The notes under the pieces: generated by a model
What the model was told of the DNA's origin: nothing
The model's database searches: none
Seen by the model: the letters and a program-made list of their open reading frames with translations, nothing else
Program-made: the position numbers and the translations under genes
Part shown: positions 22,737 to 51,740 of the stretch, piece after piece
Layout of the letters: every line of letters starts with the position of its first letter
Position numbering within the stretch: position 1 is the first letter of the stretch
Source: an uncultured Bacteroidia bacterium
GTDB lineage: Bacteria; Bacteroidota; Bacteroidia; Bacteroidales; UBA932
DNA: 57,327 bases
Direction of reading: 5' to 3'
NCBI GenBank assembly: GCA_902781705.1
Contig: CACZKE010000019.1
Span: 1-57,327 of the forward strand

Positions 22737-22740
22737 TGAT

Positions 22741-26900: not shown

Positions 26901-27000
26901 CGACAAATACGTGTTCGATCCCGAGCAACTGACGGCTTCCATCGCCGGTACGGACTTCATGACCTGCAACGTGCTTTTCGGTATCAATGTCGGATTCTAA
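23968..27000 (+). CDS. SusC/RagA-family TonB-dependent outer-membrane transporter
   Basis: 1010 residues. Signal peptide MKSLFRKTLQAVLVGAMLLLGVGAYAQ. A CarboxypepD_reg-like domain (ALTGRVVDTGGQPVIGASV, about 28-105) and the TonB-plug start (EEAVAVGYGTIKKRDLTGSV) are followed by the plug core with LVVVDGVQGAALENINPDDIERIDILKDASSTAIYGSRATNGV, all hallmarks of SusC. The 22-strand barrel fills the rest, ending in a typical aromatic residue (VGF). It imports oligosaccharides across the outer membrane together with the SusD gene that follows 13 bp later. Confidence 0.97.
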   Translation: MKSLFRKTLQAVLVGAMLLLGVGAYAQQALTGRVVDTGGQPVIGASVIVEGTTNGVITDANGSFSIKAAAGSPVVISCLGYVDARANLQPGIVITLSEDAELLEEAVAVGYGTIKKRDLTGSVASVSTSELIRSGVTNASGALQGSLPGVQIQRSNNKPGGGYNILIRGLNTISGSTAPLVVVDGVQGAALENINPDDIERIDILKDASSTAIYGSRATNGVVLVTTRRGQTGKPRVDYSGYVGVRSYTNLPEMMTGEEYVQLAREAARAGNNNQYKDDEKVFTASELKAIQDGNYFNWVEATTHPAMMTNHSLSATGGDKITTYAISAGYYYEDGLVDPQEYSRYNLRASVDVRPVDFVKFGINMYGTHSDRDTGNSDVLQDAIRMRPTYHPTNLVTGAEEWAYSNGQYNPLVAIKNEWNQTKQYNFLGNVYLELLPLKGLSLKTTFSPDYRINEIGQYRGTYTKANKGANKATSNYAKNSVMNWVWDNQVTYNREFGRNRIDLTGVFSMLETKAENLRGVGNGLSFNSLWYNLQGGANSNTSTSGYTQTNLMSWLARANYSFDDRYYATASIRFDGSSKLAEGHKWGSFASAALAWRISGESFMQDVDWINNLKLRLSFGQSGNDNVNAYQTMGAISGAKQYTFGSSELIGYVPNNLRNLDLGWERTNEYNIGLDFGFFQDRISGSVEYYDRITKDLIMNKTVPVTSGYSSVKANVGTVRNNGVEVLLNTVNVKTSDFSWRTSLNLAYNKNRIVDLQYKEDLSSRGPALEGMWGDYSNLWIIGQPVDINFSLKTIGVWKTEEAEEAAKYGNKPGQFKPWDQNGDGKITDADRFIYGKHTPDLIGGMTNTFTFRNFDLAFQLSFQRGAVLKNQYLVSFGYEGNAMNFNNLKYNYWTPENQTDEHPQPSNYGSYSNYRSSIWSNNELIATSSHRLAKLDYLKLNYVTLGYTFPKQVLQKLRMQNFRLYATVQNPWILCDKYVFDPEQLTASIAGTDFMTCNVLFGINVGF

Positions 27001-27013
27001 TCAGCAGCCTGTT

Positions 27014-28849
27014 ATGAAAACAAGAAATATCATTGCCCAAGCGCTTCTCCTTTCCGTTTTCGCGGTGACCGGATGCTCCGGTTTCCTGGATGAGAAGAAC
27101 CTTGCCAGCCAGTCCGCTGAGGACTTCTATGCCACCAAGGACGGATACGAGTCCCTGATGTCGGGCGCTTACAACACCTTGAAGTCGGTTTACAACTCGA
27201 CCAACTATTACTCCCTGGCCCAACTGGGAACGGACCTGTCCACCCACAACAATGGGAACACGACCAACCAGTTGAACCAGTACACGCCGGATTACCTGAG
27301 TGACAACGGTACTGTCTTCAACCAATGGAAAACCCTGTATGAGGCCCTCAAGAACGTGAATGCCGTCATCGGCCGTGCCGACGCGGTCATTACCAAGGAG
27401 CAGGATCCCCGGGACGGCATGGACAAGGACCTCGTGGCCCAGCACGTGGCCGAGGCCAAATTCCTCCGTGCCCTGTACCTGTTCGAGATCGTCCGCAACT
27501 GGGGACAGGCTCCGCTCATCCTGGACGAGCCCACTTCCGCCTCCACGGAAGGAACGCTGGACAGCGGTGACGCCTTCTATACCCAGATCCTGGCCGACCT
27601 GAACGACGTGATTGCCTCCAGCCTGCCCTGGAAGCAGCCTGCGGCGAACTACGGCCGCGTTTCCAAGGCTGCCGCCAAGCATCTCCGCGCCCTGGTGTAC
27701 CTCACCCGTGCCTATCAGAGCTACGGCCAGTCCACCGACTTCTCCAACGCCCTGGCTGACGCCGAGGATGTCATCAAGAATTCCGGCCACAAGCTGCTGG
27801 ACGACTTCGCGATGGTCCACCGCCAGGCCAACGAGGAGAACGACGAGATTATCTTCCCGGTCAACTTCTCCGCCGGTTCCGGCTGGAACAACAACATCTG
27901 GAGCGAGTTCTATCTGTTCGTTTACCGCGAGGGCTGGAACGATATCGGTTTCTCCGGCCTGTACCGCAATGACTGGGCGACCGTGATGCCCACCAAGTAC
28001 GCGTACCTGCTCTTCGACTGGAAGAAGGACCATCGCGCCGAGGTGACCTTCATGTCCCCGTTCAACGGAGATCCTGCCACTTCCATCGAGGGTGAGGATA
28101 CCGGAAAGAACTGGCTTGAGAGCACCAAGGGCATCCAGGTCCCTGTGGGCGAACCGGTCATCTATTTCCCGCTCCCCGTCGAGGCGGATTACAAGCAGTA
28201 CACCGCTGCCGAGAAGGAGGCTTCCGCTTCCAACGGCCTGTTCTACTATAACTATCCGAAGGGATCCCTCGCCGAGAAATCCTACAAGGATGCCGGTACC
28301 GACGATTATTACATCACCGGTTATCAGAGCATGAACAGTTCTTCCCGCGCCTGGCTGCCTGTCTGGAAGTTCAAGGACCACAACACCATCTATCAGTCCT
28401 CCGGTACCGTGGGACAGGGCATGCGTGACATTTACCTGTTCCGTCTGGCCGAGACTTACCTGATCGCCGCTGAGGCCGCTGTGGGTGCCAAGGACAATGG
28501 CAAGGCCCTGACCTATATCAACGCAGTCCGTTCCCGTGCCGCCCATGGTGCCCAGGAATCCGGTCTGGAACTGTACTCCGGTACCGTGACGGTGGACGAT
28601 GTTCTGGACGAGCGCGCCCTGGAACTCTTCGGCGAGGCCCCGCGCTGGAACGACCTGACCCGTACCGGCAAGTTGGCCGAGCGCGTGCTTGAGTACAACT
28701 GGGATGTGAACAACATCACCGGAGGCCTCATCAAGACGCAGCTCAGCAGCTCCACCAACGCCAAGTACAGCCTCCGTCCGATTCCGAAGGCCTGGCTTGC
28801 CAGCCTGACCAACGGAGACGAACTGGGAAACAACCCGGGTTGGGAATAA
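27014..28849 (+). CDS. SusD/RagB-family surface glycan-binding lipoprotein
   Basis: 611 residues. The start at 27014 gives a lipoprotein signal (MKTRNIIAQALLLSVFAVTGC). SusD features include FLDEKNLASQSAEDFYATKDGYESLMSGAYN, tetratricopeptide-like helices with AEAKFLRALYLFEIVRNWG, and a C-terminal block with IYLFRLAETYLIAAEA, ALTYINAVRSRA, DERALELFGEAPRWNDLTRTGKL and LRPIPKAWL. It forms the lid of the SusC channel. A strong bidirectional terminator follows. Confidence 0.96.
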   Translation: MKTRNIIAQALLLSVFAVTGCSGFLDEKNLASQSAEDFYATKDGYESLMSGAYNTLKSVYNSTNYYSLAQLGTDLSTHNNGNTTNQLNQYTPDYLSDNGTVFNQWKTLYEALKNVNAVIGRADAVITKEQDPRDGMDKDLVAQHVAEAKFLRALYLFEIVRNWGQAPLILDEPTSASTEGTLDSGDAFYTQILADLNDVIASSLPWKQPAANYGRVSKAAAKHLRALVYLTRAYQSYGQSTDFSNALADAEDVIKNSGHKLLDDFAMVHRQANEENDEIIFPVNFSAGSGWNNNIWSEFYLFVYREGWNDIGFSGLYRNDWATVMPTKYAYLLFDWKKDHRAEVTFMSPFNGDPATSIEGEDTGKNWLESTKGIQVPVGEPVIYFPLPVEADYKQYTAAEKEASASNGLFYYNYPKGSLAEKSYKDAGTDDYYITGYQSMNSSSRAWLPVWKFKDHNTIYQSSGTVGQGMRDIYLFRLAETYLIAAEAAVGAKDNGKALTYINAVRSRAAHGAQESGLELYSGTVTVDDVLDERALELFGEAPRWNDLTRTGKLAERVLEYNWDVNNITGGLIKTQLSSSTNAKYSLRPIPKAWLASLTNGDELGNNPGWE

Positions 28850-28910: not shown

Positions 28911-30515
28911 TCATTCAGTGATATAGAACGTTTGCCTTACGGGATCGGCAGTCCGGACGGGCGTATCCCCCTTGCGGCCGTATTGCCAGGCGACGACGGT
29001 AACTTTTACAGGGAACTTGCTCTTCGGAGGCATCTGCTCGAAAATGAGACGGTTGCCTTCGACCCTGACCGGTCCGCACTCCGCATAGAATCCGACAGGA
29101 AGTCCGCTGTCGGAAATTGCGTGCAGGATCAAGGACCGGGTATTCCTGCTGACGTTCCGCAGGGGGCTGAATTGGATATGCTGCCCTTTCCCTTCTGTCA
29201 GACGGATTGGGAGGGTGATCCGGGCCTGCTGGACGGCGGGGCGGTATACTGCGTCGCCGGAATGCTTGATGCAGAAGTCGATGAACACTTCCTTTTCCTC
29301 CCAGGTCGCCATCCGGTTCCATTCCAGCGTCAGGGTCGTGTCGCTGGAGACGCGGGCCGGTGCGGCAATGACCTCCAGATAGGGGAGACCAGCGGAATGG
29401 CCGATGGAACTTCCGGGTTCCTGATGGCTCCAGGCCCTGTGCCGGGGGCTTCCGCCTGAAACCGTGTCATAGAAGAAAGGCTTGAGCGGGAGGGTGACGC
29501 CGTCCTCCTCCGTCATGAATTCCGGATGCAGCTGCATGTGGGTATTGCGTTGGGGAACGGGTTTCCCATCCTGCAGGACGCCGACCAGCTGCCGCTCCTT
29601 TCCCCGGAAACGGGCCTGGTAGGCAAGGGTGGCCTGTACCATTTCTTCATCAAAGAACCAGAAGGCATCGGCCGGATCCCCGGTGTAGGAGCCGACCGGG
29701 GCAGGCTCACAGGAAGGACCGGAGTCTTCGTGCCAACGCTCCAGCAGCCATCCTTCCCGGGTCGGATCCACATGCCCGTATTGTAACGCTTTTCGGATAT
29801 ACAGGGCTATATATGCCGCTTTTTCAGGGGAGGAGGCAAAATGTCCTTCCCCCGGACAGGCGAGCATGCTGAGCGGGGTGAGAGGATGGTCGGCCCGTTC
29901 CTTCAGTCCCTTGAGCGCCCAGTTTTCGGCCGCTTCGTATTCGCCCATGGTCTCCAGGCAAGGGATGTAATCCACCGTCCGGTCTCCCCAGACGTCCGGA
30001 CAGAAGTTGCCGTCTCGGAAATACGGCCACTGGCCGCTGGTGGAGATGCAGGCGAGCACCCGTCCCGGGCGGGAGGCCGCCATATAGTACGGATTGCTCG
30101 CCGCGGCGGAATGGCCGAGTCCGATCAGGGGCGTACGGCTCAGTTCTCCGTAGCCGGAATCGGTGGCCAGTCGCTCCAGGACGGCGTCCAGGCCTTCCCA
30201 GGCCCCGTCCGTGAAGTCGAAGGGCAGGTTGAACCGGGGGCAGATCCACAGCTCGGCCACGCCCAGTTCCGCCATTCTCTCCCGGAATCCATCGTCTTCC
30301 AGGATGGAGATCTCTTCCATGTTGTGCTGGGCAACGATGAGGGCATTCACTTCCCGGCAGGTGGGAGGGATCCACAGATAGGCCTGCGGATGGGCATATT
30401 TCGGGTGGGCGGAAGTGTTCGGAACCACCGCCGACCATTGCCACACGGCGGTCTGAGCGGACGATGACAAGGCCACCATCCCGAAGAGGAGGGCGGCCAG
30501 CGTTTTCCGGATCAT
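28911..30515 (-). CDS. Secreted alpha/beta-hydrolase-fold protein, putative PUL esterase
   Basis: 534 residues with a signal peptide (MIRKTLAALLFGMVALSSSAQ). The first 270 residues look like an alpha/beta-hydrolase: YLWIPPTCREVNALIVAQHNM, then TPLIGLGHSAAASNPYYMA (nucleophile candidate S136), CISTSGQWPYF and LSMLACPGEGHFASSPEKAAY with a histidine candidate. The last 230 residues form a beta-rich region of unknown type. I cannot name a family. It is the last gene of the minus-strand operon, overlapping the GH97 stop by an ATGA, and probably removes an ester group from the target glycan. Confidence 0.65.
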   Translation of the reverse strand: MIRKTLAALLFGMVALSSSAQTAVWQWSAVVPNTSAHPKYAHPQAYLWIPPTCREVNALIVAQHNMEEISILEDDGFRERMAELGVAELWICPRFNLPFDFTDGAWEGLDAVLERLATDSGYGELSRTPLIGLGHSAAASNPYYMAASRPGRVLACISTSGQWPYFRDGNFCPDVWGDRTVDYIPCLETMGEYEAAENWALKGLKERADHPLTPLSMLACPGEGHFASSPEKAAYIALYIRKALQYGHVDPTREGWLLERWHEDSGPSCEPAPVGSYTGDPADAFWFFDEEMVQATLAYQARFRGKERQLVGVLQDGKPVPQRNTHMQLHPEFMTEEDGVTLPLKPFFYDTVSGGSPRHRAWSHQEPGSSIGHSAGLPYLEVIAAPARVSSDTTLTLEWNRMATWEEKEVFIDFCIKHSGDAVYRPAVQQARITLPIRLTEGKGQHIQFSPLRNVSRNTRSLILHAISDSGLPVGFYAECGPVRVEGNRLIFEQMPPKSKFPVKVTVVAWQYGRKGDTPVRTADPVRQTFYITE

Positions 30516-32452
30516 AATACGTTCTTTTTCCTGTAATCCTTGACAGACTTTTCCCTGACCGGTTCCGGCACGAGCCGGACCGCGGCGCCGCCGGCCTGCC
30601 GGAGGTTGAAGCGCAGGATCGTTTCCGCGTTCACGCGGAACTTCGAGAGGCGGACCTTGGTCCGGGTGGGGATGGACGCGTCGCCGTCGGTGTAGATTTC
30701 GGCCGTGTAGTTGCCTGCAGGGAGGAAATCAAGAGGAATGGCCGCCTCACGGGCTGCGTTGGTGATGGTGCCGACGAACCACTCTTCTCCGTGCCGGCGG
30801 GCGGTGGTGATGTATTCACCCGGTTCCCCTTCGAGGACTTTCGAGTCGTCCCAGACCGTGGGAACGTCATCGAAGAACTTGAGTTCCGGCTCGTCCTGGC
30901 TGTCGGAAGGTTTGTCATACCAGTACAGGACTTGCAGCGGGCTGTAATAGACGGCGGCCAGGGCCAGCTGGTGGGCAGGCGTGGTCTGGATACTCTTGGA
31001 GCGGGGAACGCCATGGGCGTCTTCCTGTCTTTCCAACCGGCCGAAATCCTGCCGGTAATAGCAGATGGTGTAATCGGCCGGGCCGGCCACGTAACGGGTG
31101 AAGGGGAGCATCGTGTTGTTGAAGGCATCCGGGAACTCTTCGTTGCCCCGTACGCCCTCCTGGGTCATCAGGTTGGGATAGGTCCGGCTGAAACCGGTCG
31201 GACGGTATTCGTCGTGGATGTCCACCATCAGGTGGTGCTCCGCACATTTGCGGACCGCCTCGTGCATCCATTTTGTCCAGACCTGGGAACCTACCTGGAC
31301 GAAGCCGAATTTCACGCCGGCGATACCCCATTGCTCATACAGGGGAAGGATGTCGTCCAATTGCTGCGCCAGGGCGCGCATATTGACATACAGGAAGATG
31401 CCGATGCCCTTGGAACGGGCGTAGGCGATGACGGCGTGGAGATCCAGCGCATCCGGGTTGGGATTGCGCCGCGGGTCCAGGGTGGCGGTCCTGGCGTCGG
31501 AAGCCTTGTCGTACTCGAAGCCGTACCAGCCGGCGTCGAAGAGTACATAGCGCAGGTTGTGCCTGGCGGCGAAATCCACGACGGCCATGCCTCCTTTCGT
31601 GGTCAGAGTCACCTCCCGCATCATCTTCCCGGGCTGGATCCAGGACGGGTCTTCGATGGCACAAGGCGGGTTGAGGTTGTAAAACAGGTAATTGTGCTCC
31701 AGGATCTCTCCCGCCTGGTTCCCGCACATGACCATCCGCCAGGGCGTTGCATAGGGGGCGATTTCATCGACGGGACCGTACATGGCTGCTGTCACGGTAT
31801 TAGGCTTGTCGGCAAGGCGGAACTTGGTCCGGACATAGTCCACGACCTGTGCCTCCGCCAGGCAGGCGAAACCGCCTTCCGGGAGCCTGAGCAGAAGAGG
31901 ACGGTCGGATCCCCCGTCGCCCGGCCAGTCTTTCAGGGGAAGGAGCGAGTAAGGCGTCTGGGCGCGAGGAGTGAAATAGGCGAGCGTTCCCTCAGGGAGC
32001 GTGTACTCGGTGAATTCATCCGTGATGTGGATATAGGAACCTGCTGTCACCAGATACCGGAAAGCGATTCCCTCATTGTAGGCACGGATTTCCAGCCCGA
32101 GGACGGGCCGTCCTTCCGGGGAAAGGAGGCTGACCTCCCACGCCTTGAAATGGTCCGGGATGACCGCCCGTTCTCCATAGACAGGCTTCCAGGTCGTGTC
32201 GGTTTCCCCGAGGTCCCGGATTTCTCCGATCCGGAGCCCGTCCCGCATCGGCCTTCCGGCTTCGATTCCCAGGACAGAAGGGAGAATGACGGTTTTTCCG
32301 TCCCATTGCAGGGAGTAGGCCACTTGTCCGCTCCCATCATCCAGGGTCAGGACATACCGGGTATCCGGAGAGGTGAACACGGTCTCCTTGGCCTGCAGGG
32401 AAAGGGCCAGGAGGGCGGCGAGGCCGCACAGGAGGTTTCGTACGGTTTTCAT
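30512..32452 (-). CDS. GH97 family glycoside hydrolase (first copy)
   Basis: 646 residues. Signal peptide (MKTVRNLLCGLAALLALSLQA). An N-terminal super-sandwich (TSPDTRYVLTL, IEIRAYNEGIAFRYLV equivalent) precedes the TIM barrel with VDFAARHNLRYVLFDAGWYG, the AGVKFGFVQVGSQ strand, and DIHDEYRPTGFSRTYPNLMTQEGVRGNEE. A C-terminal sandwich follows. GH97 contains alpha-glucosidases (inverting, SusB type) and alpha-galactosidases (retaining). The strand reads KFGF rather than the K-x-D expected for the retaining nucleophile, suggesting the Glu-based SusB-like arrangement, but that is inference. It lies between GH92 and the hydrolase, 6 bp from GH92. Confidence 0.93.
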   Translation of the reverse strand: MKTVRNLLCGLAALLALSLQAKETVFTSPDTRYVLTLDDGSGQVAYSLQWDGKTVILPSVLGIEAGRPMRDGLRIGEIRDLGETDTTWKPVYGERAVIPDHFKAWEVSLLSPEGRPVLGLEIRAYNEGIAFRYLVTAGSYIHITDEFTEYTLPEGTLAYFTPRAQTPYSLLPLKDWPGDGGSDRPLLLRLPEGGFACLAEAQVVDYVRTKFRLADKPNTVTAAMYGPVDEIAPYATPWRMVMCGNQAGEILEHNYLFYNLNPPCAIEDPSWIQPGKMMREVTLTTKGGMAVVDFAARHNLRYVLFDAGWYGFEYDKASDARTATLDPRRNPNPDALDLHAVIAYARSKGIGIFLYVNMRALAQQLDDILPLYEQWGIAGVKFGFVQVGSQVWTKWMHEAVRKCAEHHLMVDIHDEYRPTGFSRTYPNLMTQEGVRGNEEFPDAFNNTMLPFTRYVAGPADYTICYYRQDFGRLERQEDAHGVPRSKSIQTTPAHQLALAAVYYSPLQVLYWYDKPSDSQDEPELKFFDDVPTVWDDSKVLEGEPGEYITTARRHGEEWFVGTITNAAREAAIPLDFLPAGNYTAEIYTDGDASIPTRTKVRLSKFRVNAETILRFNLRQAGGAAVRLVPEPVREKSVKDYRKKNVL

Positions 32453-32458: not shown

Positions 32459-34789
32459 TTATCGGTCAAAAGTGGTGGCGCCCCATTTCTTGTTCGGACG
32501 GGCGCCCATGTCCAGTTCGAGTTTTCCGCCCCGGATGAAATCGGCATGCGGAATTACGCAGTCGTTCCAGGGCTTCCCGTTCAGCACAGCCTTGCGGATA
32601 TACATATTCTTATCGGAATTATTCCGGGTAAGGATCTCGAATCGGCCGCCGGGATAGTAGTCCGGGTTCAGCCTGATTGTAATCCGGTCGAAGAGGGGAG
32701 AGGTAATCTCATACCGGGATTCCGTGCTGCAGCCGCCGTCCACTTCGAACAGGCCGATTGCCATCAGGACGCCCAGGGCTCCCATCTGTCCCTGGTCTTC
32801 GTCGTCCCGATAACCGCCATAGGGCGTAATGTTGCCATAGGCCGCCTTGACCTTGCGGACCCATTTCTGGGTGAGCCAGGGAGCGCCGGCGTGGCTGAAA
32901 AGATGGGCCATCCCGGTTCCGGGCTGGTTGCCGTAATCCGTCCAGTTGAAGGCTTTGAGCGCTGGGTCGGAACTCCGGAAGAAGCCGTTCGGCTCGCTGA
33001 GGCGGAACTGCTCGTCCAGGCGGCGGACATATTCCTTCCTTCCTCCGAAAAGGTCGATAAGACCGGGCATGTCGTGCGGGACGAAATGACTGTAAATGGC
33101 GGCGTTACTTTCGCAGAAACCGTCTTTTTCGGAGATCTCCAGCGGGTCGAACGCCTTGAGGAAGGTCCCGTCCTCCATCCGCGCGTTCATGAAGCCGACG
33201 GCGGGGTCCCAGACATTCCGGTAGTTCCGGGAACGCTTCATGAAAAAGGCGTAGTCTTCCTGTTTGTCCAGGGCGAGAGCCAGCTGCGCGAGGCACCAGT
33301 CCTGGTAAGCGTATTCCAGCGTCATGGCCGCTCCGGTCGTGTGCATGCCGGTGAGGCCGGCCCGGCCGTCCGGTACGTATCCCAGCGTTTCGTAAAACCT
33401 CATCCCTCCGGAAGATGCATCCCGGGCATGTTCATATCCCGCATGATCCCGGATACCGCCCCGGAAAGCGTTCTTCCGGAGCCCCTCATAGGCGAGTTCG
33501 GCATCGTACCCCCGGATACCTTTGTTGTAAGCCGCGGCAAAGAAACTCACGGCCGGATCTCCGATCATGACATAGGTGTAGTTGCCGCCGGACGGTCCGC
33601 GGGGAATCAGGCCGCCGTTCCGGTAGTAATCCAGCATCGTGTTGCAGAAATCGTCCACGATTTCCGGATAGGCCATCGTCCACAGGATGTCCAGCGACCA
33701 GTGGCTGCCCCACCAGGCGTCGAAGTTGTGGTGGTTGTAGCGGGGCTTGCCCGATGCGTCCAGGGGAATCTGCCGGATGACGGGAGCCGGCCCCGTCATG
33801 TCCATGTAATGGCCGTCGGCATCGCTCACGATATGCCTGCCGAGCAGGGCGTGCCAGAGGTCGGTATACAGCTTGACCTGCTGCTCATGCGTCCCGCCTT
33901 CCACGTCGATCCGTCCCAGTTTTTCGTCCCAGGCGGCAAAGGCCGCATCCCGGGTCCCGTCGAAATCCCAGCCGGGAAGTTCCGCTTCCAGGTTTTTCCG
34001 GGCAATTTCCACGCTCGTATAGGAAATGGCTATCTTCAGGAGGACCTGCTCACCCTCCCGCGTCGCAAAACGGACCGCCAGCCCGGCATCTTTCCCGGAT
34101 ACACGGGCAGGACGGACGGGTTTCAGAACCTGTCCTTCCCGCCAGCAGACGGTTTCCGCCACCGGCTTGGACAGTTCGGCCCAGAAATAGACGGGTGTGT
34201 CTTTGGGGCGGCGTCCGGTCGCGCCCATGATCTCCCAGCCGGCGACGGTGTGGTCGTCCACCATCCAGACTTCCGAATAGGTCGTGGGCCCATGGGCCAG
34301 GAAAGCGCCGGCATCGAACAGGATGTAACTCTCGTCGCTGCGGGGGTAGGTGTATCGGTGGAATCCGACGCGCGTGGTCGCGGTCAGTTCAGCCGTGATA
34401 TCGTAATCGTCCAGGTGAATCCGATGATAGCCCGGCTTGGCGATTTCGTCTTCATGGGTAAAGGCGGACCGGTATGCGTCCATGCCCCGGTGCCCCTTGA
34501 ACGGGCCGGTCGTGGGCATGACGGCTACGCCGGACATCTGCCAGTTGTGGATATGGCTGAAGCAGCGGACATGCAGGGAGTCATACAGGTAGCCGGAACC
34601 CCAGGAATGCGCCGTACCGGTGTCAGGACTCAGGCTGACCATGCCAAAGGGAAGGCTTGCCGAGTCAAAATAGAACCAGCGGGAACGATGCGAATCCACG
34701 AAGGGATTGACTTTATCCACATAAGAATCCTGGGCGGATGCCCGGATGCATCCGGCGAGGGCAAGGAGGATGAAGAACAACCGTTTCAT
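32459..34789 (-). CDS. GH92-family glycosidase, divergent
   Basis: 776 residues. Signal peptide MKRLFFILLALAGCIRASAQ. GH92 landmarks: VDKVNPFVDSHRSRWFYF, then PFGMVSLSPDTGTAHSWGSGY, CFSHIHNWQMSG, and the C-terminal GGYRDDEDQGQMGALGVLMAIG, corresponding to the family D-E-D-x-G-Q-M segment. Many GH92 enzymes are calcium-dependent exo-alpha-mannosidases. Here NPFVGT is replaced by NPFVDS, and the Trp-Tyr-Val after GQM is lost, so the specificity may differ. Only 1 bp separates it from the toroid-GH3 gene upstream. Confidence 0.88.
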   Translation of the reverse strand: MKRLFFILLALAGCIRASAQDSYVDKVNPFVDSHRSRWFYFDSASLPFGMVSLSPDTGTAHSWGSGYLYDSLHVRCFSHIHNWQMSGVAVMPTTGPFKGHRGMDAYRSAFTHEDEIAKPGYHRIHLDDYDITAELTATTRVGFHRYTYPRSDESYILFDAGAFLAHGPTTYSEVWMVDDHTVAGWEIMGATGRRPKDTPVYFWAELSKPVAETVCWREGQVLKPVRPARVSGKDAGLAVRFATREGEQVLLKIAISYTSVEIARKNLEAELPGWDFDGTRDAAFAAWDEKLGRIDVEGGTHEQQVKLYTDLWHALLGRHIVSDADGHYMDMTGPAPVIRQIPLDASGKPRYNHHNFDAWWGSHWSLDILWTMAYPEIVDDFCNTMLDYYRNGGLIPRGPSGGNYTYVMIGDPAVSFFAAAYNKGIRGYDAELAYEGLRKNAFRGGIRDHAGYEHARDASSGGMRFYETLGYVPDGRAGLTGMHTTGAAMTLEYAYQDWCLAQLALALDKQEDYAFFMKRSRNYRNVWDPAVGFMNARMEDGTFLKAFDPLEISEKDGFCESNAAIYSHFVPHDMPGLIDLFGGRKEYVRRLDEQFRLSEPNGFFRSSDPALKAFNWTDYGNQPGTGMAHLFSHAGAPWLTQKWVRKVKAAYGNITPYGGYRDDEDQGQMGALGVLMAIGLFEVDGGCSTESRYEITSPLFDRITIRLNPDYYPGGRFEILTRNNSDKNMYIRKAVLNGKPWNDCVIPHADFIRGGKLELDMGARPNKKWGATTFDR

Positions 34790-34790: not shown

Positions 34791-37700
34791 TCATTGGATC
34801 TGGAATGAACCTTTCAGGCGGATGTCGGCGGAGGAGGCGCCCACCATCACCTCGAACAAACCGGGCTCTACGGTAAAATGCATGTCTGCGTCCCAGATTC
34901 CCAGGTCCTGGGGTGTGAGGGTGAAGGAGACCGTCCGGCTTTCGCCGGGTTCAAGATGGATGCGTTCAAAGCCGCGGAGCACTTTCGTGTAGGTCGTGAC
35001 ACTGCTCACCACATCGTTGATGTAGAGTTGGACCACCTCGTCGCCGCTTCGCTCTCCCGTATTTGTGACCTGGCAGGAAACGGTGACGCTGCCATCCACC
35101 GATTGCGTGTCAGGTGTCACGGACAGGCCGTCATAGGCAAAAGATGTATAACTCAGGCCGTGACCGAAAGGATACAGGGCTCCCCAGACGGAGGTCTGGC
35201 TGGATTCGTCGGAACCGGGCTTGAAGGGGAAGGCGAAAGGAATCTGTCCGACACTCTTGGGGAAGGTGACGGCCAGCCGTCCGCCCGGGTTGTTGTCCCC
35301 GAACAGGGTCTCGGCGACGGCCTGGCCGCAGAATTCGCCCGGGAACCAGCCGTGCAGGATGGCCGGGATGTGGGCGTCGGCCCAGTTGATGGACGAAGCC
35401 CTTCCGTCCAGAAGCACCAGGACGACCGGTTTTCCTGTCGCGGCGACGGCCTCCATCAGTTCCTGCTGCCGGCCGGGAAGGTCCAGGCTGGTGCGGGACC
35501 GGTCTTCGCGGACGGTCTTCTCGTTGCCGCCCAGCACCAGGATGACGACGTCTGCCGCCTTGGCCGTCCGGACGGCCTCTTTCAGGAGCTGCGCTTCTTC
35601 CGGCGTCTTTTCAAAGTACATCAGTTCGCTTTCCGGAAAGTGCGGGTCGATGATTTCGCAGCCCTTGGCATAAGTGACTTTCGCTTCGGGAAGGAGCTCC
35701 CGGATGCCCTCGTACACGGTTTTCAAAGGTGCGTTTGCGGGTCCGTAACGGCAGATCAGCTGCTCCCTTTCATGGGCGTTGGGGCCAATGACGGCCACCT
35801 TTTTGACTTTTTTGGACAAGGGTAGGAGGCCTTCGTTCTTCAGCAAAACCATGGACTCACGGGCCGCCCGGATGGAAAGGGCCTGATGCTCAGGACTGTG
35901 CACCTTCTCAAGTGCCAGGTCGCCGTCTCCCCGGTAGGGGTTGTCGAACAGCCCCAGCCAGAACTTGACACGCAGGATGTCGGAAACGCGGGCGTCGATG
36001 GTCTCCATGGACACTTTCCCATGGGCGATGGCGCCCCGGAGGGGAAGGACGAACGACTCTGGCGTCCGGAACGTGGTCCGGATATTCAGGCCGGCATTCA
36101 CGCACTGTGCCACGCCGTCCTCGTAGGTCTCTGCGACCTTGTGTTTGTCGGACAGGAACTCGACGGCTTCGCTGTCGGAGACTACGTATCCCTTGAATCC
36201 CCATTCCTTCCGGAGCAGGTCGGTCAGGAACCAGCGGCTTCCGCTTACGGGGACACCGTCGTAATCATTGTAGGAACTCATGGTTCCCAAAGCCCCCGCT
36301 TCGGAGAAGGCGACGCGGAAAGGCTCCAGATAAAGTGTGCGCATTTCGCGGGGGGCCACTTTCGGGTCGGTGCGGGTCTTCCCGTCCCGGCCGCCTACCG
36401 GGATGCTGTACACGGCGAAGTGCTTGGGCGTGGACACCAGCCGTCCTTTTTGGAGCGAAAGGACCATCTGCTTGCCCAGTTGTCCGACCAGGTAGGGGTC
36501 TTCCCCGTAACTCTCCACGCAACGGCCCCAGCGCGGATCCTGGGCGATGTCCAGGATGGGAGAGTAGATGTTCGTATAGCCCAGCAGGAAGGCTTCTTCG
36601 GCTTCCGCCTCGCCGATCCGGGCAATCAGATCCTTGTCCCAAGTCGCTCCCTGGCCGCATTGGGCCGGGAAATATGTCGCACCCACGCTGCACAGGCCCC
36701 GGATTCCCTCATTGGTGAAATCGACGGGAATGCCCAGCCGCGTCTGTTCCACGAACCAGCGCTGGATGGTGTGGAGGGCGTCCACATGCTGGCGGAAGTC
36801 GGCGGCATAGGGCGAGTCGAACCGCGGATACCCGTTGTGCTCCTCGTCGATGTTGCCGACGCCGTCCTTCCAGACCTCGTCTTTCCAGGCCGGTGTGGGC
36901 AGGTCGTCCTTCAGGACCCGGCCGGAGCCGTACAGGGTAACCATCTGGCAGGTTTTCTCTTCCAGGGTCATCTGCGAGAGGAGGTCCCTGATCCGCTCGT
37001 CGACCGGGGCGGACGGATCTTCATAGACGTCTTTCCGGCCGTTCTTGTTGAAGTCGGTCCATCCTTCATGGTAGATTTCCTCACTTTGCCAGAACAGCAG
37101 GGACCCGAACCCCGGGTGGTCGCAGGTCCAGCCTTTCCCTTCGGGACGGATCCGCTGCAGGACTTCGGCCGTCCACGGCATTTCCAGGTGCCTCCGGCCG
37201 ACGTAATGGGCATAGGCGATTTCGAAGACGGAGCGGAACTGCCCGCGGGCCTGGGCGCTCATCTCCGTCCAGCGGCAGTATTTCCCGGTCTTGTCCGTCC
37301 ACGTAAAAAACGGCAGGTCGTCATGGCCCAGGTTGTATTTCGCCAGGTATTCGTAGGCGGTCAGCAAACGGTTGCCCAGGGCGCAGTACAGGTCCTCGCC
37401 CTGTTTCCAGGCCACTTCGCAGATCTCCGCCATACACCCCAGCCCGAGCATGCAGTGGGCCTGGTCCCGGCCACTCTCCTGGAGCTGCCCGGAAGGATGG
37501 GTGTAGTTGGGGAGGGAGCCGTTGTCATAGCCGGCATCCAGATACCGGTCCAGGGCTTCCCGGTACAGGGCACGGTCGTCCAGGAACACCCCCATGCCCA
37601 CCATCCCCTTGAGGACGGAAAGTCCCCAGTTTCCGTTCGTATAGGCGGGCGTAGCGTGGAATTTCGTGAAAACGGGGATGAACGCCTCCCGGAACATTTC

Positions 37701-38222
37701 GGTGGCGAGACGGGTATCCTCGTCGTTCCAGCCGCCGGAGAATGAGGATGCCGGGTAGGTATATCGCATGATTTCCGCGGCATTGACGATGATGAAACCC
37801 TGAAGGCCGGCGCACAGGGGATCGTCCCGCGGGGTGATTTTCCGGAGGACGGCGCTGTAGGCCCGGATGATTTCCATTGCCTTGGATGCGTGGCGTTCAT
37901 TACCGGTGACCGTCCACATGAGTGCGTTGTAGTAGGCTGCGTTGAAATCGTCCTCGCAAGGCGCTTTGGTGTAGGCGTATTCATCCGCCCGGGAAATGAT
38001 GGGGAAAGGCCCCTGGATCCGGTAATCCGGAGAGGATTTGGGGTCGGAAGAGAGTTTCTCCCAGGAGCCGATGGCCGGCTGGGTGCGGTTGTCCACCAGG
38101 GACTTGATGCGGGCGAGGTCCTCCCGGTCGTGGAGGATGCCGGGATGGACGAAATCCTGTCCTTTTGCCGGAATCAACCCCAGCATGCAGGTCAGGACCA
38201 GACAGATTCTTTTGATTCTCAT
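34791..38222 (-). CDS. Fusion of alginate-lyase-type toroid domain and GH3 beta-glycosidase
   Basis: 1143 residues from the start at 38222 (signal peptide MRIKRICLVLTCMLGLIPAKG); longer readings run antisense through the GH43 gene. About 25-385 resembles Pfam Alginate_lyase: VHPGILHDREDLARIKSLVD, then TPAYTNGNWGLSVLKG and QLQESGRDQAHCMLGLG (249 on) and EYLAKYNLG. From about 390 a complete GH3 enzyme begins (EGWTDFNKNGRKDVYEDPS, MTLEEKTCQM) with nucleophile candidate VVSDSEAVEF (about D683), the C-terminal GH3 domain (VAVIGPNA) and an Fn3-like tail. No frameshift separates the halves. Each half alone would be a normal PUL enzyme. First gene of the four-gene operon. Confidence 0.85.
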   Translation of the reverse strand: MRIKRICLVLTCMLGLIPAKGQDFVHPGILHDREDLARIKSLVDNRTQPAIGSWEKLSSDPKSSPDYRIQGPFPIISRADEYAYTKAPCEDDFNAAYYNALMWTVTGNERHASKAMEIIRAYSAVLRKITPRDDPLCAGLQGFIIVNAAEIMRYTYPASSFSGGWNDEDTRLATEMFREAFIPVFTKFHATPAYTNGNWGLSVLKGMVGMGVFLDDRALYREALDRYLDAGYDNGSLPNYTHPSGQLQESGRDQAHCMLGLGCMAEICEVAWKQGEDLYCALGNRLLTAYEYLAKYNLGHDDLPFFTWTDKTGKYCRWTEMSAQARGQFRSVFEIAYAHYVGRRHLEMPWTAEVLQRIRPEGKGWTCDHPGFGSLLFWQSEEIYHEGWTDFNKNGRKDVYEDPSAPVDERIRDLLSQMTLEEKTCQMVTLYGSGRVLKDDLPTPAWKDEVWKDGVGNIDEEHNGYPRFDSPYAADFRQHVDALHTIQRWFVEQTRLGIPVDFTNEGIRGLCSVGATYFPAQCGQGATWDKDLIARIGEAEAEEAFLLGYTNIYSPILDIAQDPRWGRCVESYGEDPYLVGQLGKQMVLSLQKGRLVSTPKHFAVYSIPVGGRDGKTRTDPKVAPREMRTLYLEPFRVAFSEAGALGTMSSYNDYDGVPVSGSRWFLTDLLRKEWGFKGYVVSDSEAVEFLSDKHKVAETYEDGVAQCVNAGLNIRTTFRTPESFVLPLRGAIAHGKVSMETIDARVSDILRVKFWLGLFDNPYRGDGDLALEKVHSPEHQALSIRAARESMVLLKNEGLLPLSKKVKKVAVIGPNAHEREQLICRYGPANAPLKTVYEGIRELLPEAKVTYAKGCEIIDPHFPESELMYFEKTPEEAQLLKEAVRTAKAADVVILVLGGNEKTVREDRSRTSLDLPGRQQELMEAVAATGKPVVLVLLDGRASSINWADAHIPAILHGWFPGEFCGQAVAETLFGDNNPGGRLAVTFPKSVGQIPFAFPFKPGSDESSQTSVWGALYPFGHGLSYTSFAYDGLSVTPDTQSVDGSVTVSCQVTNTGERSGDEVVQLYINDVVSSVTTYTKVLRGFERIHLEPGESRTVSFTLTPQDLGIWDADMHFTVEPGLFEVMVGASSADIRLKGSFQIQ

Positions 38223-38331: not shown

Positions 38332-39455
38332 ATGAAACGAATCCTGATCCTCCTCTCCCTGCTGCTGCCGCTCTTCCTGCCCAGGCCCAGCGCAAATCCT
38401 TCCGTCCCGGTGAAATCTGGCCTGACGATAAAGGTGTGCATATCAATGCCCATGGCGGCGGTATCCTGCTGCACAGGGGAACCTATTATTGGTTCGGTGA
38501 GCACAAGACGGAGGGACGGGGAGGAAACCAGGCCCATGTGGGTGTCCACTGTTATTCTTCCAAGGATCTGTACAACTGGAAGGACGAGGGCATCGCGCTG
38601 AAGGTGAGTGATGATCCGGAGTCGATGATCGCCGACGGCTGCATCCTGGAACGGCCTAAGGTCATCTATAATCCTAAAACACGGAAATTCGTCATGTGGT
38701 TCCACCTGGAGCCCAAAGGAAAAGGATATTCCGGGGCGATGGTGGGAATCGCCCAGGCCAGTAAGGTGACTGGCCCTTTCACTTTTATCCGTGCTACACG
38801 TGCGACGCCGCAGATGTGGCCGGTGGACGTGAAACCTTTCCACAAAATACCCAAGGAAGGAGAAATCTGGAAGGACCGGGCGAATCTCTCGGCCGGCGAG
38901 CATCCGGATTCCGTGAATACCCTGGGACGCGATTTCCTGCCGGGACAGCATTCCCGGGACATGACCCTTTTCGTCGATGACGACGGCAAGGCCTATCACA
39001 TCTGCTCGTCCGAATCCAACAGCGTGATCCATATCGCTGAACTCACCGACGATTTCCTGGATTTCTCCGGGAAATATGTCCGGGCCTTCGTCGGGGACCG
39101 GATGGAAGCTCCCGCGGTCTTCAAGAAGGACGGCCTGTACTACTTCATGGGGTCCGAGTGTACGGGCTGGCGTCCCAATCCCGCCCATGCCGCCGTCGCC
39201 CCTTCCATCTGGGGCCCCTGGACGCAGACGGGAAATCCCTGCGTAGATGCCGACAGTGAAACGACCTATCATTCCCAGAGCACATTCTTCCTTCCAGTTG
39301 CCGGGAAGGAAGGCGCCTTTATCTACATGGGTGACCGCTGGCGCCCCGAGAATGCCATTGACGGACGGTATATCTGGCTTCCTGTGGAGTTTGAGGAGGG
39401 AAGACTCATCCTTCGCTGGCGGGACGAATGGGACCTGTCCGTTTTCGACAAGTAA
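38332..39455 (+). CDS. GH43-family glycosidase, disrupted by a one-base frameshift in the signal peptide
   Basis: The ATG at 38332 opens a clear signal peptide (MKRILILLSLLLPLFLP), but that frame ends at 38601. The enzyme itself continues in the -1 frame: QRKSFRPGEIWPDDKGVHI, then NAHGGGILLHRGTYYWFGE and so on to 39455. Adding one C to the CCC at 38380-38382 would join them as LPLFLPQAQRKSF, a normal signal cleavage site. The catalytic domain is intact and GH43-like (five-blade propeller; galactanase/xylosidase-type subgroup, not resolved). Either a sequencing/assembly error or a real inactivation or phase-variable run. If not corrected, translation could only restart internally without export. 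Confidence 0.8.
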
Positions 39456-39466
39456 AGGATTTTCCC

Positions 39467-39474
39467 TATCTTTG
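39467..39474 (+). promoter_or_regulatory. -7 box of the HTCS gene
   Basis: TATCTTTG, 7 bases before the ATG, so the transcript would be nearly leaderless. It lies 12 bases after the GH43 stop codon. Confidence 0.5.
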
Positions 39475-39481
39475 GCCCTGG

Positions 39482-42400
39482 ATGAAACGGGTAGTCTCCA
39501 TATTGGTCCTCCTGATGCTCGGCACGCTTCTTCGTGCGCAGCCTCACTATGAGTTCCGGATGCTGGACGCCTCGTGCGGCCTGCCGGAAAACAATGTCCG
39601 CGAGGTCCTGATGCTCCCGGACGGGCTTATGTGCATCCAGACATCCTCTTACCTTTGCCTCTATGACGGGGCCTCCTGCCGGAACTACCGCTGGGATCCC
39701 GTCGAGGTCCCTTATGCCGAGTACAGCGGTCAGGACCAATTGTCCTACGATGCGGAGTCGGAGCGGATTCTTCTCCGATCGAGGGACCACTATTGGGCGT
39801 TCGACCGGCGGGAGCACGTATTCCTGTATAACCTTCCGCTCCCTTCTTCCGAAAACGGGAAACCGGCGGACAACCTGTTCCCGACCGCCGTCTCCAGCCG
39901 GTCGGAAACGGCCGTCACCTCAGACGGTCAGCGCTGGTTCATGTCCGACAAACGCATTGTACATTACGATCCGAAAACGGGGCAGCTGTCGGAGACGGAA
40001 GTGATTCCGGCGGGGAACGACGACCTTTTCACCTCCATTGCCGTGGACGGGGAAGACAATCTCTGGGTGGGTACCGCCCGCTCCGGCGTCCGGATCGTGT
40101 ATCAGGACGGGACTTCCTACCGGTTCCCGAGACTGGACCGTATTGACGGAAAACCGGTCTATCCGCATTCCGATATCTCCAAGATCTACGCGGACCCCCA
40201 GGGGGGCGTATGGATTGCCACCCAGCAGGAGGGCCTTCTTTACTGGCACAAGGACATTATCCGCATCCGGACGGTCAATGCGGCATCGCTCCGGGAAGGG
40301 TCGATGCCGGACGAAAGCGTCAAGTGCCTGGCCGAAGGACCGGACGGCAAGGTGCTGGTCGGGACGGTTCACGGCCTGCTCCGGTATGATCCGCATCAGC
40401 AGAGTATGGACATCCCGTACCGCGAATTGGCGGATGAACTCATCATCAGCCTCTATGTGGATTCCCGTTCCCGGATCTGGGCGGGGACTTTCTATAACGG
40501 GCTTTATTGCGTGGACCAGGGGAAGGTCCGCCATTTCTCCTACCCGCAGCAATCCAATGTGGACGTCTCCTATCAGCACGGAACCCCCAACCTGAACTGC
40601 GTCCGCGCCCTGAAGGAGGACCTGGACGGGAATTACTGGATTTCGGTCTATGGCGGCGTAGGCCGGTTCGACCCCGAAACGGGCGAGATCCGTCTTTTGC
40701 GGGATTCCCATCCGGAACTGAACCGATACATGCTTGTACGCGATCTGTACCTGAAAGCGGACGGTTCATTCGTGGCGGCCGGCGACAACGGCCGGTTCCG
40801 CTACGACCCGGCCACGGACCGGGTGGACCGGATGGATACGGTGGACGCTTATTCCCTGACGAACCAGATCCTGGAGGATGCCGCCGGTCGTATATGGCTG
40901 GCCGAGTCGGGCGGGCTGAGCCTTCGGGACCCGATGCAGGGAGACCGTGCCGTGACTGAATCCGGGGTGGTAATGGCGTTGGCTGAGGATGGCATGGGCG
41001 GGTTGTGGGCATCGTCCACGAGCGGCATTTCCCGGATCGTGCTTTCGCCGGACGGGGCGTTCTTCCGGACGGACTACGGTCAGTCGGACGGGGTGGACTG
41101 CGGCGCCTTCTTCCAGCATTCCGTGCTCCGGCACTCGGACGGACAACTGTATTTCGGAGGGTCTTCCGGGTTCTGTATCGTGGATCCCACGGCCATGGCC
41201 CCTTCCGATTACGGCATTCCGCCGATGTTGACCTCTTTCCGGGTGGGCGGAGAGGAACGTCCTGCCAAGGATGTGACCCTCGCGTATAATGAAACGTCCC
41301 TGGAATTCGCTTTCTCGAACCTGAACTATGCCAACCCCACGCATACGACTTACCGCTATATGCTGGACGGCTTTGACAGGCAGTGGCATACCGTCACGTC
41401 GGTTCCCTTCGGGACGGCCGGTTACACCTATCTGGAACCCGGGAAATATGTTTTCCGCGTGCAGGCGACGAACAACGGAACCGACTGGAGCCCGGAGACG
41501 ACGGTCCCCATCGAGATCAAGCCTCCTTTCTGGAGGACCCGCTGGGCCTATGCCTTTTACCTTCTCTTGCTGCTGGGCCTGATCACGGGTATCGTCCTCT
41601 TCTTCTATCGGAAAGAACGCAGGCACATGTCCGAGCGGGCGGCCGAGGAAAGAAGGAAGCAGGAAGAAGAACTGAACCAGATGAAGTTCCGCTTCTTCAC
41701 CAATATTTCCCATGAACTCCGGACGCCGCTTTCCCTGATCATCCTTCCGCTGGAGAGCCTGATGAAGGAGAAGGAAGGAACGTCGGAATATGCCAAATTG
41801 GACACGATGCACCGGAGCGCGAAATCGCTGCTGGACCTGGTGAACCACCTGCTGGACTTCCGGAAAGTGGAAACGGGCGGGGAAAGGCTGAATCTCCGGA
41901 AAGGCAATTTCTCGGACTTCGTCGTCGCCTTGGTCGAATCGTTCCGGGACACGGCCGAGAGGAAGGATATCCGCCTTACCCTGGCGGACTCATCGTCCAA
42001 TCCGATGATGGCCTTTGACAGCACGATGATGCAGAAGGTGGTCAACAACCTCCTCTCCAATGCCCTGAAGTTCACTCCGGCGGGCGGGTCGGTGGAAGTT
42101 CGCCTCTCCGATACGGACGGGCGGCAGATGCAACTGGAGGTCGCGGATACCGGCATCGGCATCCCGCCATCGGACCTGCACCAGGTTTTCGACCGGTTTT
42201 ACCGGAGCGGGAACACGGGGGATGCTGTCGGTTCCGGCATCGGACTGAGCCTGGTCCGGCAGTATGTGGAAATGCACCGGGGACGTGTCTTCGTCGTCTC
42301 GGATGTCGGGAACGGGTCCACTTTTACGGTACAGTTGCCCATGGACCTGGAAGAGACGGCCTCTGTCCAGCCATTGACCGACGACAGCCCTTTGGAACAG

Positions 42401-43180
42401 GAAGAGAACGAGCATCCGGTCGGAACTGACCATAAGCGGATCATGGTCGTGGACGACAATGCCGATTTCCGGCTGTACCTGTGCGACGAATTGTCCCAGG
42501 ATTACCTGGTCTCCGATGCGGCGGATGGGGAAGAGTGCCTGGACAAGCTTCCGTCCATACGTCCGGATATCGTCGTGACCGACGTGATGATGCCCAAGAT
42601 GAACGGATTCGAGCTGACGCGCCGGATCAAGGAGAATGTGGAGACTTCCCACATCGCCGTCATCCTCCTTTCCGCCCGCATGTCCGAGGATATACGGACG
42701 GAAGGTTATGAGTGCGGTGCCGATTCCTACCTGACCAAGCCGTTCAAGATGGACATGCTCCAGATCCGGATCAAGAACCTGCTGGAAGAACGGGAGAAAC
42801 GGATCCGGTCTTTCTCCGGTTCGGCGGAAGTCTCCCCGATGCACGTAACGGTGACGACCGTGGACCAGAAACTGATGACCCGGATCATGGAGAAGCTGGA
42901 GGCGAACATGGACAATACCGAGTATTCCGTGGAGGAACTGGCCGCCGACGTGGGTATGCACCGGATGAACCTCTACCGCAAGATCCAGTCGCTGTATGGG
43001 ATGACTCCCTCCGAGTTCATCCGGACCATGCGCCTGAAAAGGGCGGCCCAGCTGCTGGGAGACGATCCCAACCTGACGGTTTCCGAAGTAGCGGACCGGG
43101 TGGGCTTCAATACACCCAAGTACTTCACCCGCTACTTCAAGGAAATGTTCGGCGTGCTCCCTTCCCATTACAGGAAGTAG
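39482..43180 (+). CDS. Hybrid two-component system (HTCS) sensor-regulator
   Basis: 1232 residues, one-protein sensor typical of Bacteroidetes PULs. Signal/anchor MKRVVSILVLLMLGTLLRAQ; two seven-bladed Reg_prop propellers and a Y_Y_Y domain (periplasmic, to about 685); transmembrane helix about 690-711; HisKA with FFTNISHELRTPLSL (H744); HATPase with VVNNLLSNALKFTP and GSGIGLSLVRQYVE; receiver domain about 985-1100 with phospho-acceptor D1034 (VVTDVMMPKMNG) and TKPFK; AraC-type DNA-binding domain to the end. It senses an oligosaccharide in the periplasm and activates the nearby PUL operons. Its stop codon is 1 bp from that of the convergent gene. Confidence 0.96.
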   Translation: MKRVVSILVLLMLGTLLRAQPHYEFRMLDASCGLPENNVREVLMLPDGLMCIQTSSYLCLYDGASCRNYRWDPVEVPYAEYSGQDQLSYDAESERILLRSRDHYWAFDRREHVFLYNLPLPSSENGKPADNLFPTAVSSRSETAVTSDGQRWFMSDKRIVHYDPKTGQLSETEVIPAGNDDLFTSIAVDGEDNLWVGTARSGVRIVYQDGTSYRFPRLDRIDGKPVYPHSDISKIYADPQGGVWIATQQEGLLYWHKDIIRIRTVNAASLREGSMPDESVKCLAEGPDGKVLVGTVHGLLRYDPHQQSMDIPYRELADELIISLYVDSRSRIWAGTFYNGLYCVDQGKVRHFSYPQQSNVDVSYQHGTPNLNCVRALKEDLDGNYWISVYGGVGRFDPETGEIRLLRDSHPELNRYMLVRDLYLKADGSFVAAGDNGRFRYDPATDRVDRMDTVDAYSLTNQILEDAAGRIWLAESGGLSLRDPMQGDRAVTESGVVMALAEDGMGGLWASSTSGISRIVLSPDGAFFRTDYGQSDGVDCGAFFQHSVLRHSDGQLYFGGSSGFCIVDPTAMAPSDYGIPPMLTSFRVGGEERPAKDVTLAYNETSLEFAFSNLNYANPTHTTYRYMLDGFDRQWHTVTSVPFGTAGYTYLEPGKYVFRVQATNNGTDWSPETTVPIEIKPPFWRTRWAYAFYLLLLLGLITGIVLFFYRKERRHMSERAAEERRKQEEELNQMKFRFFTNISHELRTPLSLIILPLESLMKEKEGTSEYAKLDTMHRSAKSLLDLVNHLLDFRKVETGGERLNLRKGNFSDFVVALVESFRDTAERKDIRLTLADSSSNPMMAFDSTMMQKVVNNLLSNALKFTPAGGSVEVRLSDTDGRQMQLEVADTGIGIPPSDLHQVFDRFYRSGNTGDAVGSGIGLSLVRQYVEMHRGRVFVVSDVGNGSTFTVQLPMDLEETASVQPLTDDSPLEQEENEHPVGTDHKRIMVVDDNADFRLYLCDELSQDYLVSDAADGEECLDKLPSIRPDIVVTDVMMPKMNGFELTRRIKENVETSHIAVILLSARMSEDIRTEGYECGADSYLTKPFKMDMLQIRIKNLLEEREKRIRSFSGSAEVSPMHVTVTTVDQKLMTRIMEKLEANMDNTEYSVEELAADVGMHRMNLYRKIQSLYGMTPSEFIRTMRLKRAAQLLGDDPNLTVSEVADRVGFNTPKYFTRYFKEMFGVLPSHYRK

Positions 43181-47376: not shown

Positions 47377-47407
47377 CAAAGATACTAAAAATCGGTGCTA
47401 TTCCAAT
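47377..47407 (-). promoter_or_regulatory. Promoter of the DUF4230/receiver-PPDK operon
   Basis: Minus strand TATCTTTG (47377-47384), with ATTG (three of four to TTTG) 19 bases upstream (47404-47407). It overlaps the last codons of the DUF4861 gene upstream. Confidence 0.6.
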
Positions 47408-48261: not shown

Positions 48262-48269
48262 GATGTCAA

Positions 48270-48312
48270 TGTCATTCTGAGCGCAGCGAAGAATCTAGCA
48301 GCGAAGAATCTA
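48270..48312. repeat. Dispersed-type repeat with 15-bp tandem duplication, supplying the kduI stop codon
   Basis: The short gap between kduI and DUF4861 is filled by TGTCATTCTGAGCGCAGCGA, then AGAATCTA. The unit GCAGCGAAGAATCTA occurs twice in direct succession (48283-48297 and 48298-48312). The last three bases of the second copy (CTA) are, on the minus strand, the TAG stop of kduI. This matches the GTCATTCTGAGC...GAAGAATCT repeats I know as widespread short interspersed repeats in bacterial genomes. Confidence 0.75.
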
Positions 48313-49173: not shown

Positions 49174-49188
49174 ATTCATTCTTTTTTC

Positions 49189-49362: not shown

Positions 49363-49363
49363 A

Positions 49364-50167: not shown

Positions 50168-50207
50168 ACTGCTATGTGTTTTAAAGTTGTTTCCTGTTTG
50201 CCGGATG

Positions 50208-50238
50208 CAAAGATACAAACGTTTGTATTTATTTCAAA
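50208..50238 (-). promoter_or_regulatory. kduD promoter with a perfect 16-bp operator palindrome
   Basis: Minus strand -33 TTTG (50235-50238), 19 bases, -7 TATCTTTG (50208-50215): a full consensus. Between them, touching the -7 box, lies ATACAAACGTTTGTAT (50213-50228), a perfect palindrome with the CG-centred AAACGTTT core typical of LacI/GalR-family operators. Its position predicts repression. No LacI-type gene is in the window, so the regulator would be encoded elsewhere. Confidence 0.75.
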
Positions 50239-51737: not shown

Positions 51738-51740
51738 GTG

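Follow-up and report, generated by a model that had tools for sequence, protein, structure and literature searches.

An inherited fusion of a candidate lyase toroid with a complete GH3 enzyme in uncultured Bacteroidales

We analyzed a 57,327-nucleotide (nt) contig of an uncultured Bacteroidales bacterium of the GTDB group UBA932 (CACZKE010000019.1, assembly GCA_902781705.1), hereinafter the window, which carries on its minus strand a gene (34791..38222) encoding a toroid domain fused to a complete enzyme of glycoside hydrolase (GH) family 3. Upon translation, the open reading frame (ORF) runs uninterrupted from ATG to stop, yielding 1143 amino acids (aa) with zero internal stops, and has a full-length counterpart in a second species of the genus (genome G516). 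The protein begins with a signal-peptide-like N-terminus (residues 1–21; 38160..38222), assigned by sequence inspection without a signal-peptide program, followed by the toroid domain (residues 22–381; 37080..38159), which is supported by Pfam, an AlphaFold2 (AF2) model and fold matches in the PDB. The Pfam family Alginate_lyase (PF05426) matches residues 86–298 with 50.7 bits (E = 2.3e-13), passing the curated cut-off of 22.2. Two motifs of the toroid contain residues that are invariant among the aligned toroids, namely, NGNWG (residues 196–200; 37623..37637), with N198 and W199, and ESGRDQAH (residues 249–256; 37455..37478), which the first-pass annotation of this DNA had placed at about residue 249, with E249, R252, D253 and H256.

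At the fusion junction (residues 371–388; 37059..37112), the linker is almost nil, the toroid ending in GFGSLLF (371–377) and the GH3 part starting with EEIYHEGW (381–388). The remainder of the protein (residues 382–1143; 34794..37079) comprises the GH3 N domain (residues 477–752; E = 9.8e-56, 189.9 bits against a Pfam cut-off of 27), the GH3 C domain (residues 791–1025; E = 1.6e-53, 182.1 bits against a cut-off of 31) and an Fn3-like tail domain (residues 1062–1131; E = 4.5e-27, above the Pfam cut-off). The ORF and the Pfam matches thus bear out the first-pass description of an unbroken frame leading from a secreted toroid into a full GH3 with an Fn3 tail. The best solved match of the GH3 half is the beta-xylosidase 7zb3 (E = 5e-152), and D683 (in VVSDSEAVE) and E906 (in VREDRSR) align with the Asp and Glu of that structure, which we take to be the nucleophile and the acid/base, respectively. 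None of the function-specific cut-offs of NCBIfam was reached for this half, which is likely to be a beta-glycosidase.

Evidence that the fusion is genuine comes from G516, which encodes a complete toroid-GH3 protein of 1145 residues that is 73% identical to that of the window (839 of 1144 alignment columns; 68% in the toroid, 78% in GH3). Gaps occupy five columns of the alignment, and three of these fall at the junction, where G516 has three extra residues. The next gene in G516 encodes a GH92 protein 75% identical to the GH92 of the window. Toroid matches were detected in 26 of the 400 genomes of the genus surveyed, and two of these, the genome of the window (G000) and G516, contain the toroid-GH3 fusion; the other toroid frames of this survey, mostly unopened, measure at most 1054 aa, and the long toroid frames in the toroid searches were opened in part. 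Among the matches listed, a query with the whole protein against 101 relatives gave a full match in its own genome only, a junction-spanning query against 395 genomes of the phylum found both sides in one frame in its own genome only, and the nearest GH3 relatives aligned only from residue 375–382 onward. The two free GH3 orthologues that were checked carry a leader of 23–25 residues just before the point of fusion, as had been expected of GH3 proteins of this type: the one from Phocaeicola vulgatus (788 aa) is homologous from residue 26, and the one from genome G100 (795 aa) from residue 24. Several free toroids, in turn, terminate at an AFGTLLF-like motif that matches the GFGSLLF of the window toroid.

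Given these data, the possibility that a mistake in sequencing or assembly merged two separate genes, which the first-pass annotation had named as grounds for refutation, has a negligible chance of being correct. In its favor, the toroid-GH3 pair is seldom seen, and in the neighboring GH43 gene the leader and the body lie in different frames, about 110–175 bases upstream of the start of the fusion gene, so that small errors nearby are possible. However, both the toroid stop and the GH3 leader are absent, so a single sequencing error or indel would not suffice, and the two halves are nearly equal in GC content and in GC content at third codon positions (0.609/0.795 and 0.611/0.775). The presence of the same fusion, at 73% identity and with a longer junction, in G516 rules out an assembly artefact. 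Repeats were likewise dropped as an explanation, given that the gene contains only imperfect pairs of 20–24 nt. The toroid-GH3 fusion is therefore real and inherited, though rare.

The fusion gene lies among genes for carbohydrate-active enzymes. Immediately after it, with a gap of 1 base, comes the GH92 gene (32459..34789, minus strand), whose P. vulgatus orthologue (72% identical) carries a toroid, followed by a GH97 gene (30512..32452, minus), a 57% relative of which is fused to a toroid elsewhere, and a gene (28911..30515, minus) for a protein without Pfam or NCBIfam matches. The latter protein is conserved, with a 58% identical orthologue in P. vulgatus, and our guess would be an esterase of an unrecognized family. 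Further along are a SusC/SusD pair (23968..28849, plus; P. vulgatus orthologues 68% and 72% identical) and a GH88 gene (22666..23937, plus), relatives of which are fused to toroids. On the other side, the GH43 gene (38332..39455, plus), 80% identical to a toroid-fused GH43, has a good signal-peptide-like leader and an enzyme body in separate frames, which reflects either a true frame break or a sequence error and cautions that the window is not free of one or the other; it is followed by a hybrid two-component regulator (39428..43180, plus).

More distantly, the minus strand encodes DUF4861, KduI and a short-chain dehydrogenase that we label KduD-like (47398..50218). Three copies of a 45–48 nt repeat (49207–49369) separate kduI from the dehydrogenase gene; the KduI ORF as called reads into these repeats, and its true start is probably further downstream. 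The plus strand then encodes a second toroid, a second GH97 and a third toroid (50328..56035). The third toroid protein (53666–56035) lacks the N-terminal helices and is joined to a beta-helix-like domain, its C-terminal part showing a weak likeness to the rhamnogalacturonidase BT4146 (24.5 bits, cut-off 500); a 93% identical copy adjoins a GH88 gene in the congener G788.

The partners of this toroid family were surveyed in the best 80 of 292 relatives. P. vulgatus ATCC 8482 contains an orthologous locus (NC_009614.1, ~192–209 kb, with the SusCD pair at 202–207 kb). In that locus, identity to the window is 68% for SusC, 72% for SusD, 68% for GH97, 72% for GH92, 75% for GH3, 58% for the protein without a Pfam match and 55% for GH88, and the toroid forms the N-terminal part of the GH92 protein (1141 residues, with Alginate_lyase and both GH92 domains), GH3 standing alone. 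A literature search with presumed locus tags retrieved no paper about this locus. A heparinase II/III-like protein of 912 aa is encoded beside it (L139:7621-10359).

Other loci present further combinations. In a Dysgonamonadaceae metagenome-assembled genome (MAG; L063), the toroid follows a GH97 57% identical to that of the window, with SusC, SusD and GH88 relatives adjoining. In two loci (L061 and L062), the toroid precedes a GH88 (48%), in L061 beside SusC, SusD and GH97 relatives, and in an Odoribacteraceae MAG (L064) it follows a GH43 80% identical to that of the window, with GH97 and GH88 relatives adjoining. Three toroids (L057, L070, L104) share a protein with a beta-helix (GH28) domain, a relative of the one in the third toroid protein of the window, and two (L058, L107) follow the C-terminal part of a relative of the 28911–30515 protein, the remainder of which was not found in L058, whereas in L107 the contig end cuts the frame. 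The toroid stands alone, as a complete frame of 368–420 aa, in 41 of the 80 loci; no toroid-GH3 fusion was seen among the 80. Partners may be hidden where frames are cut at the 3' end (L052, L102) or the 5' end (L056, L107) or broken (L125).

Counted in the fetched flanks of these loci, fused cases included, relatives of GH97 occur in 35, SusC in 20, the protein without a Pfam match in 17, GH88 in 15, the helix domain in 13, GH43 in 11, SusD in 8, and GH92 and GH3 in 3 each, these being raw counts without a background control; AXE1 occurs in none of the 80. The nearest toroids outside the genus (L049–L056; 56–62% identical; Bacteroides, Alistipes and Mediterranea records) have a C-terminal part of ~150 residues, for which no Pfam match was obtained in L049, and three Paraprevotella records (L060, L066, L068) contain two toroids in tandem with a DUF1349-like tail.

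In a tree of 83 toroids (excluding L052, L102 and L125), those of the GH3 fusions in the window and in G516 group together as a clade (SH-aLRT 98), which belongs to a 12-row group with the 150-residue-tail toroids and the third toroid of the window; the P. vulgatus toroid falls in a different starred group. In a later analysis of 80 rows, from which the long branches L025, L108 and L116 were also removed, no fewer than 10 changes of state were required to account for the 14 rows in which the toroid is fused to one of these enzymes, with toroids bearing 640-residue extensions (L071, L073, L082, L089), DUF1349-like tails or 150-residue tails counted as not fused. A single clade of GH3- and GH92-fused toroids, a group named after the first tree had been seen, was rejected (p-AU = 9.9e-60). 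Across related loci, GH92, GH97, GH88, GH43 and a beta-helix domain have thus each been fused separately to a member of this toroid family.

What the toroid does is suggested by its predicted fold and its conserved residues. The AF2 model of residues 1–381, built from 15 sequences (pLDDT 90.2, pTM 0.89), is helical, and the 50 listed of its 409 PDB fold matches are all polysaccharide lyases (PLs), including alginate lyases, PL38, PL40, PL33 and chondroitin lyases. The model loosely resembles the alpha/alpha toroid structures of PL5, PL17, PL38 and PL39, with template modeling (TM) scores by query length of 0.48–0.66. All 53 toroids of one alignment agree at sixteen positions (R78, D92, N198, W199, Y240, Q248, E249, R252, D253, Q254, H256, Q274, E291, Y292, N297 and Y315), and N198, W199, Q246, E249, R252, D253, H256, D277, E291 and Y292 are likewise unchanged in every one of the 15 rows of a more divergent set, the two alignments overlapping by three rows. 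Retrieval with the patterns W[TKL]D[VKR]TGKY and A[AI][YH][LYQ]N[AS][LVI]MW favored sequences that retain residues near 95–103 and 308–315, which biases the invariance of Y315 and of other positions there; N198 to Y292 are free of this bias. Some of the invariant positions appear to lie at the N-terminal ends of model helices 197–213 and 254–273. N198 aligns with the Asn, the neutralizer in A1-III, that precedes the catalytic His of PL5 and PL38. Structures of A1-III name H192 and Y246 as its catalytic pair (PDB titles).

From these residues, we take the toroid to be an active site that is differently equipped from PL5 and PL38, and the lyase fold matches together with the fusion to GH88 make beta-elimination its likely chemistry. 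Membership in PL5 or PL38 is not claimed, the catalytic His and Tyr being absent, and the comparison is retained only in the sense that the toroid may work like these enzymes. According to the respective sources, Y298 and H243 are the bases of BoPL38, and PL42 employs a His-based apparatus (PMC13169297); the catalytic His is conserved in the PL5, PL15, PL17, PL38 and PL39 alginate lyases, and the GAGases, except GAGase III, have Asn in its place (PMC12088678). Hence, lyases lacking this His exist.

We favor, with a probability of roughly 0.58, the reading that the gene is an inherited fusion in a Bacteroidales polysaccharide utilization locus (PUL), in which a toroid lyase acts first and the attached GH3 then trims, with the toroid being the key step shared by related loci. 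Under this reading, the secreted toroid would attack an acidic polysaccharide, breaking a 4-linked uronosyl bond through beta-elimination; N198 and R252 would hold and neutralize the carboxylate, and H256, aided by D253 or E249, could replace the usual His/Tyr pair. The attached enzyme, a GH3 by family, would take off a beta-linked sugar near the cut, and GH88, KduI and the dehydrogenase, as expected from their families, would process the unsaturated uronate. The GH3 fusion would then be one of several ways of tying the toroid to a trimming enzyme, presumably with some benefit from the coupling. Unsaturated uronates are the substrates of GH88 and Kdu enzymes, whose presence in the gene set fits that of a lyase. 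As described in one study, GH88 is an unsaturated glucuronyl hydrolase that requires a lyase product (PMC6298971).

A number of observations weigh against this reading. In two remote profile alignments, the His/Tyr pair of PL5 and PL38 was not recovered, with W199 at the His position and a residue other than Tyr at the Tyr position, the latter being D253 in the alignment to A1-III and H256 in that to BACOVA_01668 (3nfv), where R252 falls on an Arg. The first-pass proposal of a lyase and a GH3 in one polypeptide is supported in part: both full domains are present, and elimination by the toroid is plausible. The structural resemblance to solved lyases is loose (TM scores normalized by query length 0.45–0.66, root-mean-square deviation 4.1–9.2 Å, 7–16% identity), the toroid domain alone has no sequence match to solved lyases up to E = 10, and the best profile match is weak (E = 4e-7 with 15 sequences, 0.004 with 53). 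The full-length fusion model (mean pLDDT 73.2, pTM 0.58, pLDDT below 50 at residues 380–397) is of too low quality to reveal how the two halves pack. Furthermore, the pair is rare (2 among the 400 congeners, 0 of the 80 named loci), GH3 is scarce near toroids, two of its three occurrences showing 29–32% identity, relatives of KduI and DUF4861 are found in 0 of the 80 fetched flanks, and the P. vulgatus heparinase II/III-like protein is another possible lyase that could feed GH88 there. Finally, the invariant carboxylates would also suit a hydrolase.

Indeed, the toroid could be a glycoside hydrolase acting via E249, D253 and E291, making the protein a double hydrolase. This alternative accommodates the invariant Glu and Asp residues and the lack of the canonical lyase pair, but it is unlikely, given that the 50 solved folds listed are without exception lyases, that N198 retains the position of the lyase neutralizer, and that GH88, which depends on a lyase product (PMC6298971), shares one protein with the toroid in L061 and L062 and occurs near 15 of the 80 toroids. 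Alternatively, as the first-pass annotation had held should active-site residues and lyase activity prove lost, the toroid could be a module without catalysis of its own that binds substrate on behalf of its partner, whatever enzyme that may be, consistent with its constancy while partners change and, again, with the missing pair. We consider this quite improbable: the sixteen invariant positions are polar or aromatic, some of them at N-terminal helix ends, which argues against a simply decayed binding module, and a stand-alone form of 368–420 aa in about half of the loci would be an uncommon arrangement if the domain did no more than bind substrate.

The substrate may be narrowed by the accompanying families. 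GH92 and GH38, the latter present in a B. caecigallinarum locus (L144), point to alpha-mannose, and uronate is indicated by GH88, KduI and the toroid itself. Xylose or arabinose would match GH3 and GH43, and alpha-galactose or glucose would match GH97. A polymer with a core of glucuronic acid (GlcA) and mannose would fit best, an assignment that we make only tentatively. Alginate is not favored, GH92, GH97, GH88, GH43 and GH38 being unsuited to a polymer of uronate only, and a literature search found no paper on gum ghatti together with PULs. Marine flavobacterial PULs with GH92, GH3, GH88 and many sulfatases have been proposed to target glucuronomannan, a proposal for which the authors ask for functional proof (PMC6298971, PMC9723552).

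Among described systems, the PL5 and PL38 lyases (A1-III, BoPL38) share with the toroid the Alginate_lyase Pfam family, a similar fold and the Asn at the neutralizer position, but the toroid has Trp199 at the His position, a replaced Tyr and a fused GH3, with a structural-alignment identity of 11–14%. The PL17 oligoalginate lyases (7bm6, 8bdd, Alg17c) are among the best fold matches but have a C-terminal beta-sheet domain (PMC12088678) where the window toroid has GH3. On the GH3 side, homology to 7zb3 and related beta-glucosidases extends across the whole GH3 part, including the catalytic Asp and Glu, but these enzymes have no toroid; the free P. vulgatus GH3 (NC_009614.1, 194185–196551) resides in the same kind of locus but stands alone with its own leader. 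The toroid-GH88 proteins of L061 and L062 contain the same toroid family (49% identical), whereas their partner would act directly on the lyase product. The putative marine glucuronomannan PULs likewise combine GH92, GH3 and GH88 with SusCD but are rich in sulfatases, and the passages available, in which the assignment is the authors' hypothesis, name no toroid (PMC6298971). The first-pass annotation knew of no described enzyme with this pair, and none was found in the open-licence literature, CAZy and most subscription papers lying outside that search. The combination of toroid and GH3 is probably new, the kinds of domains themselves being already known.

Fusions of genes that are separate elsewhere are evidence of joint action, and the fusions that center on a single toroid place GH3, GH92, GH97, GH88, GH43 and a beta-helix enzyme in one pathway; among them is that at the locus of P. 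vulgatus, a common human gut species. This suggests that the partner enzymes work stepwise on one polysaccharide. If the toroid is indeed a lyase without the usual pair, it would represent a new mechanism inside the Alginate_lyase Pfam family. We also regard as possible, without considering it probable, a broader reading in which the toroid founds a lyase family of its own, with His/Asp-based elimination, and serves as the hub step in a widespread system by which Bacteroidota use a GlcA-mannose polymer, the many trimming enzymes of that system having been fused to this hub separately. If so, these fusions would provide a natural series in which to measure the worth of physically coupling consecutive steps.

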